Source: Bacteroidia bacterium
GTDB taxonomy: Bacteria; Bacteroidota; Bacteroidia; Cytophagales; Cyclobacteriaceae
Reading direction: 5' to 3'
NCBI GenBank assembly: GCA_030425425.1
Contig: JAUIAO010000056.1
Coordinates: 1 to 39,688 of the forward strand
DNA: 39,688 nucleotides
Below are positions 23,285 to 28,477 of the stretch, piece after piece (position 1 is the first letter of the stretch; the number at the start of each line of letters is the position of its first letter). The position numbers were made by a program, and so were the translations under genes. The notes beneath the pieces are model-generated. The model ran no database searches. It saw only the letters and a program-made list of their open reading frames with translations, and was not told the origin of the DNA.

Positions 23285-23821
23285 CTAGCATTCCTCATCG
23301 ATTTGCTCCTCAATATATAACTCTAAGTCAATTTTGAATGATTTATCAACCTCCTCGGAGAACACCTGCCCATTTATTCGTATTTCCAGCTTGTCGAACA
23401 TCTCCTTTTCTTTGTCATTACATTTAGCTTCTGGGTTATTACAGCATACATTGGGTTCTGAATTCAAAATTTTCAAATTCCAATCTTTTAGGTGATACTC
23501 TATATTTTGATCTTCTTTGGTAAGGATATAAAATGATGCAGAATCAAGCTCAAAATCATTCTCAGTTATATTGAGCTCAAAACCTAAACCACCTGTCGCT
23601 GTGAATCTATTATAATGAAAGATTGAGTCGATAATTTCCACATCTGGATTATAAACATCGTCTATCACCAGCTCCCCATTGAGATAAACATTTAAAGATT
23701 GTCTGGTAACACATCTCAACTCGGTGTATGGATTTCTATTTAAAAAACCACAAGTACAAGATGTCAAGGTTGATTGAAGATAAACAGTGAACAAAAATGT
23801 TATTAAAACTACTTTTTTCAT
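23285..23821 (-). CDS. Unknown cysteine-containing lipoprotein, last gene of the ethanolamine-type operon
   Basis: Not recognised. The 178-residue protein has a lipoprotein signal peptide with lipobox T-L-T-S-C22 followed by T-C24. The mature part is acidic and AT-rich in codon use, with a second cysteine group C126-C127-x6-C134 that could form disulphides or bind metal. The C-terminus is very acidic (E-E-Q-I-D-E-E-C). The ATG overlaps the aldehyde dehydrogenase stop by four bases (ATGA), so it is translationally coupled to that operon although it has no obvious metabolic role. Confidence 0.75.
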   Translation of the reverse strand: MKKVVLITFLFTVYLQSTLTSCTCGFLNRNPYTELRCVTRQSLNVYLNGELVIDDVYNPDVEIIDSIFHYNRFTATGGLGFELNITENDFELDSASFYILTKEDQNIEYHLKDWNLKILNSEPNVCCNNPEAKCNDKEKEMFDKLEIRINGQVFSEEVDKSFKIDLELYIEEQIDEEC

Positions 23822-25182
23822 CCTCTTAAATGATAAGCTTTTGGTTGTGTAAATGCGCGGATGCCCATGTATGATAATGTATGTCCCATGCCCGAATTTT
23901 TGCGACCAGACCAGGGGACATTCGGGCTTACCCGATCACAGCAGTTCCAGTAGCAAGTACCTACATTCATTTGATCCAGCACAGTTTTAGCCCGCTGCTC
24001 GTCCTCAGAAAAAACAGACGCAGTAAGACCATATGGAGTATCCAGCATCAAACGAATTGCCTCTTCATCAGACCCAACAGCCTGAATGCCAATAATGGGA
24101 CCGAAGGATTCTTCCATCATAATTTTCATCTCATGCGTAGTTTGTGTCACTACCGTCGGCTCCATATAATATCCCGGTTTATCCATTCCTTTCCCACCCA
24201 GGATTACTTCAGCACCCTTCTTTTTGGCATCTTCTATCTGATCCAAAATCACCTCTAATTGAGCCTCTCGGGTGACTGGCCCTATGAAAGTATCGGCTTT
24301 CTCAGGATTGCCGATTTGGTAGTTCTTCACCTCTTCCACGAAATACTTCACAAACTCGTCATAAATCTTAGCATGAACATAAATGCGCTCCACTGCGCAA
24401 CAGCTCTGACCAGCATTGTAAAATGCTCCTTCAGCAGCATTAATCGCCCACTTTTTCACATCCCCAACATCATCCATGATGTACAGAGGGTCTTTTCCTC
24501 CTAGTTCCAATTGAACAGGTACCATTTTGTGAGCCACATTCTTAGCAATGTGCAGTCCGGTCTTATGAGATCCTGTAAAAAAATATCCGTCCAAGTCAGA
24601 TTCCAATAATGTTTGCCCTACTTCTCCTGAACCGATTGCTATATCAAATACATTTTCCGGGACTCCAGCACGATGTAATAATTCTTTGAACTTCAATCCA
24701 GTGAGTGTGGCATATTCCGAGGGCTTATAAAGTACGCTGTTACCAGCGACCAAAGCATACAAAAAGACATTATAACCTACATTATATGGGAAATTCCAAG
24801 CCGATATATTAGCAATCACACCGAGTGGCTCATGATATAGCAGCTCCAGCGTATCGCCTTCCATTCCAAATTCTTCAGGTTGGAGCCACTTTTCAGCATT
24901 TTTGGACAAATGTGAAATTCGGTTTAGCGAACCACTGATTTCATTTCTTGATTGCGTAATCGGCTTACCTGTTTCCTGAGTAAGAATCTGCGCAAGTTCA
25001 TCCTTATTTTCAATGACCAATTTTCCAAAAGCTTCAATGGCTTTTAACCTGGTGCGCACAGACTTTTTCGCCCAGACTTTTTGGCCTGCCCTGAGAGCTT
25101 TCAATTTCGCATCAATACTTGCTTTGTTGTCTTGTTCTATTTCTCTGATAACCTCCTCAGTGGCTGGATTAATAATTTTCAT
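23818..25182 (-). CDS. NAD(P)-dependent aldehyde dehydrogenase
   Basis: Oxidises an aldehyde to the acid. The 454-residue protein has the ALDH landmarks: I-S-A-W-N-F-P (126-132), K-P-S-E (153-156), F-T-G-S (202-205), general base E226 in L-E-L-G-G-K-D-P, nucleophile C261 in N-A-G-Q-S-C-C, and E-S-F-G-P near 385. It resembles succinate-semialdehyde and gamma-glutamyl-aminoaldehyde dehydrogenases in overall form. The start overlaps the amidotransferase gene stop by four bases. In the operon context the substrate may be an aldehyde made by the neighbouring alcohol dehydrogenase; this is inference. Confidence 0.9.
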   Translation of the reverse strand: MKIINPATEEVIREIEQDNKASIDAKLKALRAGQKVWAKKSVRTRLKAIEAFGKLVIENKDELAQILTQETGKPITQSRNEISGSLNRISHLSKNAEKWLQPEEFGMEGDTLELLYHEPLGVIANISAWNFPYNVGYNVFLYALVAGNSVLYKPSEYATLTGLKFKELLHRAGVPENVFDIAIGSGEVGQTLLESDLDGYFFTGSHKTGLHIAKNVAHKMVPVQLELGGKDPLYIMDDVGDVKKWAINAAEGAFYNAGQSCCAVERIYVHAKIYDEFVKYFVEEVKNYQIGNPEKADTFIGPVTREAQLEVILDQIEDAKKKGAEVILGGKGMDKPGYYMEPTVVTQTTHEMKIMMEESFGPIIGIQAVGSDEEAIRLMLDTPYGLTASVFSEDEQRAKTVLDQMNVGTCYWNCCDRVSPNVPWSGRKNSGMGHTLSYMGIRAFTQPKAYHLRG

Positions 25183-25949
25183 AGCAGGTTTATTTGACGT
25201 TTTTTTCTCACTTGTTCTATAAAATATCGGTACAATGGATCCGGATCAATGACTTCACCGCCCAAAGTATGCGAAAACTCAGGGTGCCATTGTACACCGA
25301 CTATTTTTCCTTCTTCGCTCTTTGTGTGACCGATAGCCTCAATGATGCCGTCTTCCGGGCTTGTAGCCAGTATTTCAAGACCCTGCCCCAAGTCTTTAAT
25401 GGACTGATGATGTACAGAATTCACTTTTGTGGCTGGATCGCTCTGATATATCTGATGTAAAATTTTACCTCGTGCCCAGTTGATTTCATGAGAAATGGTA
25501 TCATAAAGATCGGCATCTCGATGGATCAGGCTCTCCGGTCTCTGTGTTATCGTATCCTGATACAAGGTGCCCCCAAAATAAATATTCATCAATTGCATCC
25601 CTCTACATATGGCCAATATCGGTTTGCCACTTTTAAAAGCTCGGTCAAACAACCTGAATTCATATTCATCCCGAACTGGATCGCCAGGCCACCTTCCATT
25701 TTCAATTGGCGATTCGTGATAAAACTCTGGGGCAATATCAGTCCCTCCCTGAAACACAAACCCGTCCATTTCAGACAGGATATCATCCAACAGATCATCT
25801 GATACGTCTGGGATCAATACGGGCAAAATACCCTTTTGTGTGAGGTACCTGGCCATATCATTTTCAATATAGCTCAGCGTTTTTGGTGCAAATACTTTTC
25901 TATGTGCATCAGGATAACTGAAACATGCAGAAATGCCAATTTTGATCAT
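25179..25949 (-). CDS. Class-I glutamine amidotransferase-like gamma-glutamyl hydrolase (PuuD-like)
   Basis: A 256-residue stand-alone peptidase-C26-type protein. Catalytic triad: C115 (L-A-I-C-R-G-M-Q), H222 and E224 (V-Q-W-H-P-E-F). The F-Q-G-G-T-D-I-A-P-E segment and V-N-S-V-H-H-Q-S are as in PuuD, which hydrolyses gamma-glutamyl-GABA. Stand-alone enzymes of this type cleave gamma-glutamyl amides. It begins one base before the upstream dehydrogenase stop region ends and overlaps the ALDH start by four bases, so the three are translated as a block. A gamma-glutamylated intermediate is therefore a reasonable prediction. Confidence 0.88.
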   Translation of the reverse strand: MIKIGISACFSYPDAHRKVFAPKTLSYIENDMARYLTQKGILPVLIPDVSDDLLDDILSEMDGFVFQGGTDIAPEFYHESPIENGRWPGDPVRDEYEFRLFDRAFKSGKPILAICRGMQLMNIYFGGTLYQDTITQRPESLIHRDADLYDTISHEINWARGKILHQIYQSDPATKVNSVHHQSIKDLGQGLEILATSPEDGIIEAIGHTKSEEGKIVGVQWHPEFSHTLGGEVIDPDPLYRYFIEQVRKKRQINLL

Positions 25950-25950
25950 G

Positions 25951-27093
25951 CTAAAGTGCCTTTTCGTAAAGCTTTTTAAAATCTTCGCGACTTACAGATT
26001 TGGGATTTGCAGGATGGCAAAAATCAGCTAGTGCCAATTCTGAAAGCTCCTCAATGTGCTCTTCTCTAACGTCAAGATCTCTCAACTTTGTCGGCAATTC
26101 CAATCGTTCATTCAATTCAAACAGATAATCTACTACCCGTTCACCTTCGCTTTCCATCACTCCCAGGCTTTGGGCCATTCTGTCAAACTTCCATTCCAAT
26201 CCTGAATAATTGAATTCCATCCCGTAAGGCAAATTCACCGCATTGGCCAATCCATGATGAGTATCCAGTAAACTGGACAATGGGTGTGCAAGGCTATGCA
26301 CCACACCAAGTCCCTTCTGAAAAGCTACTGCGCCCATCATCGAACCAAGTAGCATGTCCGAACGTGACTGTAAGTCTGGATGATGAGTTGCTTTTTCGAT
26401 TGACTTAGCAATCAATGCCATTCCTTCCAGTGCAATTCCATCACACATGGGATGATAATTTTTTGCCAAATACGCCTCCATATTGTGTGTAAGTGCATCC
26501 ATTCCTGTGGCTGCAGTGACAAACGGGGGCAAATCCATAGTCAACTCAGGGTCTGCAAAAACAATATGTGCCATGAGCCTTGGAGAAAACAAAATGCGTT
26601 TCTTTCTGGATTCATCTTCAGAGATGATTGCGCTTCGCCCGACTTCACTGCCAGTACCAGATGTAGTTGGTACGGTGACAAAATAGGGAATTGGTTCAGT
26701 AACATACTGGTCACCACCAATCAAATCATCGTATTCAAATAAATCACGAGGGTGATGTGCCTCTAGAGCAATTGCCCTGGCTACATCCAACGCCACTCCT
26801 CCTCCTATTCCAATGATGGCATCACGTGAAGTATTCCTAAACATTTCACCGCCTTTAAGCACATCTGACTTAATAGGGTTTTTGTGAAGGTCATAGAAGA
26901 TCTCCACCTCAAGGTTTTTGACCTTTAATCCATCGATGATATTTTTAAAAAAGTCCAAATCCTTAATCACTGAGTCCGTGACAATCAGCGGTCTTTTCAG
27001 CGACTGCCCTTTCAGGTGATCACCCAGCTCATCAATCACGCCTTTACCAAAGCGGATCGGTGTGGGAAAATTAAAGCTTAACCTTTCGTTCAT
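25951..27093 (-). CDS. Iron-containing (group III) alcohol dehydrogenase
   Basis: A 380-residue NAD(P)-dependent alcohol dehydrogenase. It has the nucleotide-binding G-I-G-G-G-V-A-L-D-V-A-R, the T-V-P-T-T-S-G-T-G-S-E-V segment, G-M-D-A-L-T-H-N-M-E-A-Y and H-S-L-A-H-P-L-S-S-L-L-D-T-H-H-G with the metal-binding histidines. The start is taken at ATG 27091-27093 (M-N-E-R-L-S-F). An upstream in-frame ATG at 27139 would add 16 residues that do not look like family sequence. It sits between the permease and the amidotransferase gene and probably oxidises the primary alcohol group of the imported compound or its derivative. Confidence 0.9.
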   Translation of the reverse strand: MNERLSFNFPTPIRFGKGVIDELGDHLKGQSLKRPLIVTDSVIKDLDFFKNIIDGLKVKNLEVEIFYDLHKNPIKSDVLKGGEMFRNTSRDAIIGIGGGVALDVARAIALEAHHPRDLFEYDDLIGGDQYVTEPIPYFVTVPTTSGTGSEVGRSAIISEDESRKKRILFSPRLMAHIVFADPELTMDLPPFVTAATGMDALTHNMEAYLAKNYHPMCDGIALEGMALIAKSIEKATHHPDLQSRSDMLLGSMMGAVAFQKGLGVVHSLAHPLSSLLDTHHGLANAVNLPYGMEFNYSGLEWKFDRMAQSLGVMESEGERVVDYLFELNERLELPTKLRDLDVREEHIEELSELALADFCHPANPKSVSREDFKKLYEKAL

Positions 27094-27154
27094 TTTACAG
27101 CCATTTAGTGAACTACACCTGGATAAAGATACAGGATGCATTGTGGAATTTGAC

Positions 27155-28477
27155 TCATTCTGGTTTGCCAGAATTTCGATTACTCAATAAAAACCAGAAA
27201 TATGATACTATCATAATCATCAGGTAAACTGAAGCGAGTTTCAGGTTATACATCGTCATGGCAATAAGAGCCATTATAGCAATAACCAATGCCACAGAAG
27301 GAAAGAGTGGGAACATTGGTACTTTGAATGGCCTTTCCAGATCGGGCTCCGATTTTCTCAGTTTGAAAAAGGCTATCATCGAAACCACATAGAGCGTCAA
27401 CGCACCAAAGCATGCAATGGTGATAATCTCACCGGTCTTTCCTGTCAGCAATGCCACTATTCCAATCAGCATGTTTACAATAAGTGCATTTGCAGGAGTT
27501 TTCGTTTTAGGGTTTACCTGACCAAGACTTTTTGGAATATATCCCACCCTTCCAAATTCAAATGTACTTCGTCCGGCAGCCAATATGATTCCATGAAAAG
27601 ATGCGATCAACCCCAAAAGACCTACCGAAATTAACAAATGATAAAGCACATGATTTTCGCCCACAATTACTGCAAGTGCCAAAGGCAAAGGCGAATCTGA
27701 TGGTTCATTGCTTCCCGGAGGATAAACCACACTTTCCCATCCGGCCACTCCCACGGCGGCAATAAAAGTGAGGATACATAATATCACCAAAGTAATAATA
27801 GCTGAACCAAATCCTTTCAAAATGTCTTTTTGCGGATTGCGAGCTTCCTCCGCCACATTAGCCACACCTTCGATTGCCAAAAAAAACCAGATAGCAAAAG
27901 GTATAGCTGCAAAAGCACCTTCCAACCCATTCGGTAATGCGTTTCTGGACAGGTTCTCTATGTTTACATGTGGAAGGCTCACTCCGGCAAAAATCAACAA
28001 CTCTAAAACTGCCAAAATCGTGATGACCAGTTCGAATATCGCAGCGGCCTTTACTCCAATGATATTGAGTAAAGTGAATATGAAATATGCCAAAATGGCA
28101 ATAGTCAAAGTATCAATCTCTGGAAAAAAAATATTGAAATATGCTCCAATTGCTGCTGCAATAGCTGGTGGAGCAAAAATAAATTCCACATTCTGGGCCA
28201 TGCCAGCTATGAATCCCATTTTCGATCCAAGTGCCCTGTTGGCATAGTCAAAAGCACCTCCTGCTTTTGGGATTGCACAAGCCAGCTCAGTGTAGCTGAA
28301 AGTAAAGGTCACATACATGATAATGATAAAAAACGTGGCAATGGCCAATCCCAGAGTACCTCCTTCGGCCAGACCAAGGTTCCATCCGAAATACATTCCT
28401 GAAATTACGTAACCGACACCTAGTCCCCAGAGCATCAATGGACCAAGTGTTCTGCTCAATTTCGCTGATTCTGACAT
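27155..28477 (-). CDS. eat: APC-superfamily permease, ethanolamine permease type
   Basis: A 440-residue transporter with about twelve hydrophobic helices. The N-terminal L-G-P-L-M-L-W-G-L-G-V-G-Y-V-I-S-G-M-Y-F-G-W-N-L-G-L stretch is the signature I associate with ethanolamine permeases. A-Q-N-V-E-F-I-F-A-P-P-A and A-I-E-G-V-A-N-V-A-E-E-A-R-N-P are also typical of that group. It is the first gene of a five-gene minus-strand operon with iron ADH, PuuD-like hydrolase, ALDH and a lipoprotein. No eutBC ammonia-lyase genes or microcompartment shell genes are nearby. Confidence 0.82.
   Translation of the reverse strand: MSESAKLSRTLGPLMLWGLGVGYVISGMYFGWNLGLAEGGTLGLAIATFFIIIMYVTFTFSYTELACAIPKAGGAFDYANRALGSKMGFIAGMAQNVEFIFAPPAIAAAIGAYFNIFFPEIDTLTIAILAYFIFTLLNIIGVKAAAIFELVITILAVLELLIFAGVSLPHVNIENLSRNALPNGLEGAFAAIPFAIWFFLAIEGVANVAEEARNPQKDILKGFGSAIITLVILCILTFIAAVGVAGWESVVYPPGSNEPSDSPLPLALAVIVGENHVLYHLLISVGLLGLIASFHGIILAAGRSTFEFGRVGYIPKSLGQVNPKTKTPANALIVNMLIGIVALLTGKTGEIITIACFGALTLYVVSMIAFFKLRKSEPDLERPFKVPMFPLFPSVALVIAIMALIAMTMYNLKLASVYLMIMIVSYFWFLLSNRNSGKPE

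Follow-up and report, generated by a model that had tools for sequence, protein, structure and literature searches.

Described gamma-glutamyl routes and the operon of the window

Ethanolamine is a building block of membrane lipids and a very common lipid headgroup. A pathway in which it is gamma-glutamylated has been published for Chromohalobacter salexigens and Phaeobacter sp. MED193 (PMC10132767; review PMC9397018, Table 2). In C. salexigens it consists of a glutamine synthetase-like ligase (PF00120), an alcohol dehydrogenase (PF00465), an aldehyde dehydrogenase (ALDH, PF00171) and then an amidohydrolase (PF05013) (PMC9397018); in Phaeobacter the transporter is of the TRAP type, and in Paracoccus an operon of this published type carries annotations for the same three kinds of enzyme. 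In Streptomyces, the ligase of the GlnA4 cluster (SCO1610-1615) acts on ethanolamine (Krysenko 2019, PMC6529630). This cluster combines a glutamine synthetase-like ligase, a dehydrogenase (short-chain according to a figure legend in PMC6529630, PF00465 according to the table of review PMC9397018), an ALDH and an amidotransferase-type hydrolase; some species have a permease as well. The ipu (isopropylamine) cluster of the Paenarthrobacter plasmid pTC2 likewise brings together a glutamine synthetase-like ligase, a short-chain dehydrogenase, an ALDH and a PF07722 hydrolase, next to an annotated P450 and ferredoxin. The Puu pathway of E. coli also has a gamma-glutamyl ligase, an ALDH and a PuuD-type hydrolase, which releases GABA, but none of its steps calls for an alcohol dehydrogenase.

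The window (the whole stretch of 39,688 nucleotides that was analysed) contains five minus-strand open reading frames (ORFs), which were recovered in the order, and with the two ATGA overlaps, that had been claimed for them:

27155..28477, minus strand: APC-family permease of the ethanolamine permease type (TIGR00908), proposed role ethanolamine uptake
25951..27141, minus strand: iron alcohol dehydrogenase (Fe-ADH; PF00465 and PF25137), proposed gamma-glutamylethanolamide dehydrogenase
25179..25949, minus strand: peptidase C26 / PuuD-like hydrolase (C26; PF07722; C115, H222, E224), proposed gamma-glutamylglycine hydrolase
23818..25182, minus strand: ALDH (PF00171), proposed gamma-glutamyl-aminoacetaldehyde dehydrogenase, with an ATGA overlap with C26
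23285..23821, minus strand: lipoprotein-like ORF without family match, end of the operon

The four-base overlaps lie at 25179-25182 (C26/ALDH) and 23818-23821 (ALDH/lipoprotein), and one base separates the Fe-ADH from the C26. Relatives of the Fe-ADH align only from residue 16-23 onward, and its true start is therefore probably a later ATG near 27093. The C26 protein (190.8 bits to PF07722) carries its Cys-His-Glu triad at the predicted positions, as befits a class I amidotransferase-like peptidase C26, and has 3fij, 7d4r and PuuD (6vtv) as relatives in the PDB; the ALDH matched PF00171 with 441.5 bits. The C26, the Fe-ADH and all ALDH matches listed fall under the cut-offs of the NCBIfam models. 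The lipoprotein had been counted as a member of the operon. The ORF is present, but it gave no match in Pfam and NCBIfam profile searches and none at E 1e-8 in 20 neighbourhoods from 19 relatives, which places it outside the conserved unit; it is probably not part of the pathway.

We consider it likely that the window encodes the import and processing steps of a route from ethanolamine to glycine that does without B12, with the ligase encoded elsewhere. In the steps that we infer from sequence, the permease would import ethanolamine, which the ligase would join to glutamate at the expense of ATP; the alcohol of the resulting gamma-glutamylethanolamide would be oxidised to the aldehyde by the Fe-ADH and further to gamma-glutamylglycine by the ALDH, and the C26 would split the latter into glutamate and glycine. 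The glycine could enter the glycine cleavage system, the P-protein of which (GcvP) is present in the genome. The original prediction had labelled this reading hypothetical; it is supported by the ligase, the gene order and the gene fusions described below, with ethanolamine as the presumed substrate, but the label itself has to be dropped, as the route is already known from other phyla (Chromohalobacter, Phaeobacter, Streptomyces). What is new is the Bacteroidota variant, with a C26 for PF05013 (the genome's own PF05013 protein lies elsewhere), an APC instead of a TRAP transporter, a ligase of another subfamily than Csal_0679 and, in the window's genus, the position of this ligase beside an undescribed kinase-fold/HAD pair. 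The operon has a Fe-ADH where the ipu cluster has a short-chain dehydrogenase. No Bacteroidota version of the route was found in the literature, searched by title and abstract start.

The ligase and its association with the operon

A GlnA4/PuuA-like ligase, missing from the window, had to be sought in the rest of the genome, and one GlnA-like amine ligase of 453 aa was indeed found there (G000:C44, the C44 ligase); the genome has just one further PF00120 protein, which is 338 aa long and contains a beta-grasp domain. At the position of the catalytic E327 of glutamine synthetase, as placed by motif and without a glutamine synthetase alignment, the C44 ligase has W319. This residue is invariant in 21 rows, as are Glu, His and Arg in the motifs expected for metal and glutamate, and PauA7 has a W at the equivalent position as well. 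The idea that W or F at this position identifies ethanolamine ligases was rejected, because the Paracoccus ligase has F while LIGx, a relative of the ligase in Bacteroidota, has W. A point against the reading is that identity of the C44 ligase to LIGx and to the Paracoccus ligase is only 33-35%, while these two share 48% with each other and match Csal_0679 (5dm3) far better (603 bits for the ligase of the Paracoccus TRAP operon versus 263 for the C44 ligase). The C44 ligase is nearer to a plasmid gene annotated ipuC (41% identity) than to the Csal_0679 subfamily. The C26 is 33% identical to that of the ipu cluster, and the Fe-ADH shares 38% identity with its counterpart in the TRAP-type operon of Paracoccus.

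A close C26 was found in 20 of the 146 genomes (own genome counted), together with the ligase in all 20 and with the permease in 19. For the ligase 4.4 genomes were expected (Fisher p 1e-16; 15/15 by genus), from presence lists compiled by hand, with some congeners merged by hand, and uncorrected for kinship, as are all co-occurrence and avoidance statistics given here. Against the reading, the ligase occurs without a close C26 in 12 of 32 genomes. The comparison of gene order that the original prediction had proposed shows the ligase of relatives flanked by permease and ADH: it lies inside the same cluster in 10 of the 20 close-C26 genomes, with the fullest order being permease-ligase-ADH-C26-ALDH, and the Fe-ADH adjoins it in relatives. 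The ADH (PF00465) and ALDH (PF00171) are likewise clustered with the ligase in 10/20 genomes and separate from it in the window's own genus. Among the best 80 ligase loci of representative genomes the same order recurs in 28, of which 21 have a distant C26. Three loci (L225, L221 and L212) encode an ALDH fused to a C26 that shares its Pfam family with the window's, which ties the hydrolase to the aldehyde step. The parts of the route appear to be modular: the last hydrolase is exchanged, and C26 and ALDH can form a single protein.

The permease, EutB and the probable substrate

That ethanolamine is the substrate is suggested mainly by the permease, which passes the TIGR00908 'ethanolamine permease' model (474 bits, cut-off 381.75) and has orthologues, 73-74% identical, directly after EutB-EutC in two relatives (G072 and G080); its role in transport is predicted from the family. 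The permease forms one clade with these two orthologues and with five that lie beside LIGx (inner supports 81-92, unstarred); of the eight permeases that neighbour EutB, on the other hand, six fall into another clade (42-47% identical). At an identity of at least 56% the permease was recovered in 35 of 146 genomes, 32 of which have the ligase or LIGx (the LIGx count includes one partial match, G134) and three EutB alone, and in a phylum draw of 395 genomes a ligase match was found in 11 of the 11 permease genomes. Some Bacteroidota (G032, and G046 by eye) have the order permease-LIGx-SDR-ALDH-GATase, with a permease of the window's kind, so that one kind of permease pairs with EutBC, a LIGx cluster or a window-type operon.

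The ethanolamine ammonia-lyase EutBC, with which the permease orthologue is shared, was to be searched for according to the original prediction. A profile search that covered EutB alone gave no PF06751 match in the own genome (among 14 controls only E. coli was positive); with the ligase present, neither of the two refuting findings looked for occurred. EutB, present in 25 of the 146 genomes, occurs in none of the 20 close-C26 genomes (p 0.025; by genus p 0.074), and operon-type ligases (26 genomes, grouped after the contexts had been seen) share no genome with it (p 0.008; by genus 0.024). A general avoidance of EutB was rejected: all ligases and LIGx together share EutB in 7 of 42 genomes versus 7.2 expected, because six kinase-context ligases co-occur with EutB. 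The predicted route would extend the B12-free use of ethanolamine to many Bacteroidota.

Alternative readings and the kinase-fold/HAD pair

The same gamma-glutamyl chemistry could serve a different primary amino alcohol (3-aminopropanol, 4-aminobutanol, alaninol or a mixture) and would then yield beta-alanine, GABA or alanine. The best NCBIfam match of the Fe-ADH, under cut-off, is 4-hydroxybutyrate dehydrogenase, the C26 resembles the GABA-releasing PuuD and the ligase is nearer to ipuC than to the Csal_0679 subfamily, all of which would fit such a substrate; yet the score of the permease and the EutB-EutC-permease operons of its orthologues argue for ethanolamine, and we regard the other amino alcohols as unlikely. 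A putrescine operon of the Puu type, for which a PuuD-like hydrolase and an ALDH are at hand, is highly improbable: an amine oxidase family is absent among the five ORFs, the alcohol dehydrogenase would be left without a role, and the C26 reaches 89.6 bits with the PuuD model (NF008471, cut-off 266) and the C44 ligase 204 bits with that of gamma-glutamylputrescine synthetase (PuuA; NF045547, cut-off 650).

A further alternative concerns the location of the ligase, which in all six members of the window's genus lies not in the operon but before an undescribed kinase-fold/HAD pair. The ligase could there serve this pair only, with the operon using another ligase, such as the GCS2 encoded beside a PF05013 protein elsewhere in the genome (C62; the two might form or cleave gamma-glutamyl amides), or oxidising the free amino alcohol. 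In one tree the genus ligases fall outside the main kinase-context clade (clade support 93) and in a second they join it with weak support (62/86), whereas at the six columns that separate the two types 26 of their 36 cells are operon-type and 10 kinase-context. In G065, which by the identity of its permease and kinase-fold protein comes closest among genomes from outside the genus, the ligase lies in the operon and the pair on another contig; linkage is therefore not needed. The 338-aa beta-grasp protein is the only other PF00120 candidate, and this alternative as a whole seems rather improbable.

The pair itself is nearly confined to genomes that have such a ligase: the ligase was also present in 23/23 and 41/42 genomes of two overlapping draws, the one exception for the kinase-fold protein (APHx) being G342; among the 71 'ligase' genomes of the wider draw, 19 were counted on weak matches, possibly to ordinary glutamine synthetases, and the count of 41 needs none of them. 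APHx gave no match in Pfam and NCBIfam and nothing better than E 0.35 in the PDB, and 19 of 56 rows escaped the motif expression used for the HAD protein. Alongside the preferred ethanolamine-to-glycine route, the dependence of the pair on the ligase hints at a further candidate fate of the glutamylated amine. Tentatively, Bacteroidota may have a second use of gamma-glutamylated ethanolamine, in which the phosphotransferase-fold and HAD-IIA proteins would act on the ligase product (e.g. by phosphorylating gamma-glutamylethanolamide), and the genus ligase may have moved there while feeding both branches. The ligase gene is easily annotated as glutamine synthetase and therefore liable to be misread in these genomes.

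The operon and its ligase

The five open reading frames predicted on the minus strand at 23285-28477 were found in place, as were both predicted ATGA overlaps (4 bases each) and the hydrolase residues C115, H222 and E224. The gap between the genes for the iron alcohol dehydrogenase (ADH) and the hydrolase (C26) is 1 base. The family assignments were:

Ethanolamine-type permease: TIGR00908, 474 bits (cut-off 381.75)
Fe-ADH: PF00465/PF25137
C26, proposed gamma-glutamylglycine hydrolase: PF07722
Aldehyde dehydrogenase (ALDH): PF00171

The lipoprotein, originally counted as an operon member, matched none of the families searched, and nothing corresponding to it was seen in the 20 neighbourhoods compared from 19 relatives; the conserved unit is therefore one of four genes.

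The ligase, GlnA- or PuuA-like, was to be sought outside the window, and a GlnA-like ligase is indeed present in the genome (G000; 5.85 Mb, 121 contigs, 99% complete). There are two PF00120 matches: a 338-aa protein that also carries the beta-grasp domain PF03951, and the 453-aa ligase (contig G000:C44, 99751-101109), whose scores against the models for GlnA, type III and gamma-glutamylputrescine synthetase were all under the cut-off. Placed by motif, its W319 occupies the position at which glutamine synthetase has its catalytic E327, and where the GlnA4 paper (PMC6529630) gives W296 for PauA7 and F331 for GlnA4. EutB, a subunit of ethanolamine ammonia-lyase, was sought in this genome and not found (the E. 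coli control was positive); the glycine cleavage system is represented by its P-protein. Against the ethanolamine reading, the ligase scores only 263 bits against PDB 5dm3 and shares 35% identity with the ligase from a Paracoccus operon whose annotated genes include an N-formylglutamate amidohydrolase, a TRAP transporter, an ALDH and an Fe-ADH; judged by sequence, it is therefore of a different subfamily from the Csal_0679/Paracoccus ligases, and kinship does not prove its amine.

Elsewhere in the same genome (contig G000:C62; L264:251-2181) a gene of the GCS2 ligase family overlaps a PF05013 gene; the two may form another pair acting on gamma-glutamyl or N-acyl amides.

Co-occurrence, gene order and gene fusion

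A close C26 (at least 53% identity) occurs in 20 of the 146 genomes scanned, the window's own counted, and all 20 have the ligase (expected 4.4, p 1e-16, uncorrected for kinship; by genus 15/15). In 10 of the 20, ligase and C26 share one cluster: permease-ligase-ADH-C26-ALDH in G065, G083, G071, G029 and G050 (in the last a contig end cuts the ALDH), clusters cut after C26 (G055) or within the ligase (G087), and ligase-ADH-C26-ALDH without adjoining permease in G062, G120 and G089 (ADH-C26 spacing of 2.8 kb in G089). In the other 10 the ligase lies away from the C26 cluster: six are members of the window's genus, three (G022, G035, G038) have ligase and permease together, apart from ADH-C26-ALDH, and G075 has the ligase elsewhere and only ADH and C26 together. 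The permease (at least 56%) is found in 19 of the 20, the exception being G062 (86% complete). Twelve of the 32 ligase genomes have no close C26: six carry the ligase before kinase-fold and HAD genes (kinase context) and also EutB, two (G091, G139) have the full operon with a C26 of 30% identity, and the remaining four are G020, G048, G064 and G133.

The EutB matches in L133, L134, L135 and L136 (G051, G006, G118 and G068) lie within open frames of 716-810 aa, are 32-33% identical to an ordinary EutB and are possibly EutB-EutC fusions or another lyase.

The ligase alignment was scanned against representative genomes and the best 80 loci were taken, which by title come from Bacteroidota or Balneolota in all but two cases, one unassigned and the other a Gammaproteobacteria MAG.

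Gene arrangements in the best 80 ligase loci
Permease-ligase-ADH-C26-ALDH: 28
Ligase-ADH-C26-ALDH, no permease: 2
Permease-ligase-ADH-ALDH, no separate C26 reported: 3
Ligase-ADH-ALDH, no separate C26 reported: 1
Permease-ligase-ADH: 2
Permease-ligase: 5
Ligase and kinase-fold gene: 37 (HAD also in 35)
Ligase alone: 2

The 28 complete loci come from Sphingobacterium, Pedobacter, Chitinophaga, Parapedobacter, Cyclobacterium, Pricia and other genera, with a C26 identity of 56-60% in 7 and 30-42% in 21. The four loci seemingly devoid of C26 contain a single long ORF with PF07722 N-terminal and PF00171 C-terminal, intact in three:

L225:11534-13621 (Terrimonas pollutisoli): C26-ALDH fusion, PF07722 + PF00171
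L221:11566-13647: C26-ALDH fusion, PF07722 + PF00171
L212:11851-13932: C26-ALDH fusion, PF07722 + PF00171

All three proteins (693-695 aa) carry the cysteine and His-x-Glu motifs of C26 and the cysteine motif of ALDH; L182 is laid out alike, in a broken frame. The fusion ties the hydrolase to the product of the aldehyde, a tie that the proposed order of steps needs.

The permease, its probable substrate and the published route

The permease (at least 56%) occurs in 35 genomes, 32 with the ligase or LIGx (its distant relative) and three with EutB but neither. In a phylum draw of 395 genomes, which overlaps the first set (at least G000, G097, G115 and G130 are common), each of the 11 genomes with the permease also gave a match to the ligase. 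Permease orthologues directly follow EutB and EutC in G072 and G080 (73-74%) and adjoin LIGx in G032, G046, G084, G063 and G011 (66-77%). A short-chain dehydrogenase, an ALDH and a class I amidotransferase then follow in G032 (two of the three Pfam-tested) and, judged by eye, similarly in G046; the ALDH, the sole gene sought in G063 and G011, is present in both, and none was seen near LIGx in G084.

L247:6301-12001 (partly L242, L244, L246, L249): second Bacteroidota ethanolamine-type operon, with permease, LIGx, short-chain dehydrogenase, ALDH and class I amidotransferase

The Streptomyces GlnA4 cluster has the same gene content as this LIGx operon, and its ligase is reported to be ethanolamine-specific (PMC6529630). 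In the permease tree, the EutBC-side and LIGx-side permeases form one clade with that of the window (support 100; inner 81-92), and six other EutB-adjoining permeases form a separate clade. LIGx scores 447 bits against PDB 5dm3, which is Csal_0679 of Chromohalobacter salexigens; Csal_0678, next in number, is described as an ethanolamine-binding protein (PMC10132767).

The operon genes of the original prediction and a GlnA-like ligase were found, but the gamma-glutamyl route, there called hypothetical, is already known, since it has been published for three systems: GlnA4 produces gamma-glutamylethanolamide, the subsequent steps to glycine being proposed (PMC6529630); the Phaeobacter operon proteins are reported to increase on phosphorylethanolamine, their genes being described as close relatives of those of a pathway already demonstrated for C. 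salexigens and for Agrobacterium (PMC10132767); and the families listed for the C. salexigens route are PF00120, PF00465, PF00171 and PF05013 (PMC9397018, Table 2). The window's operon has a PF07722 hydrolase where C. salexigens has PF05013, and an APC permease where Phaeobacter has a TRAP transporter; its system differs further in ligase subfamily, gene order and the split of the genes.

The kinase-fold and HAD genes

In the window's genus the ligase is placed before two genes:

L003:10631-12528 (G000:C44): kinase-fold and HAD-IIA genes behind the ligase

The main kinase-context clade, with a support of 93 in one tree and 99/94 in another, excludes the genus ligases, which join it at 62/86 only. 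The HAD-IIA protein has the motif DAFGVL and the PDB relative 2hx1. The kinase-fold gene had no match in Pfam or NCBIfam; the predicted structure of a relative in L208 (pLDDT 83.6) matches kinases that share the fold of aminoglycoside, choline, ethanolamine and homoserine kinases (best E 4e-9, TM roughly 0.5-0.7). K52, D211, N216 and D230, to which roles were assigned from that fold, are invariant in 35 rows. The kinase-fold and HAD-IIA genes are almost confined to genomes that have a gamma-glutamyl amine ligase. Because the kinase-fold gene accompanies the ligase or LIGx in 23/23 genomes of the first set and 41/42 of the second (p 4e-35), at times on a different contig from the ligase (G065), the link looks functional and not positional alone.

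Upstream of the ligase (L003:3668-9177) lie alpha-oxoamine synthase-like, epimerase-like and ketosynthase-like genes (labelled by eye) and a gene of the PPTase superfamily; a PPTase-like gene is also found upstream of the ligase in the five other members of the genus.
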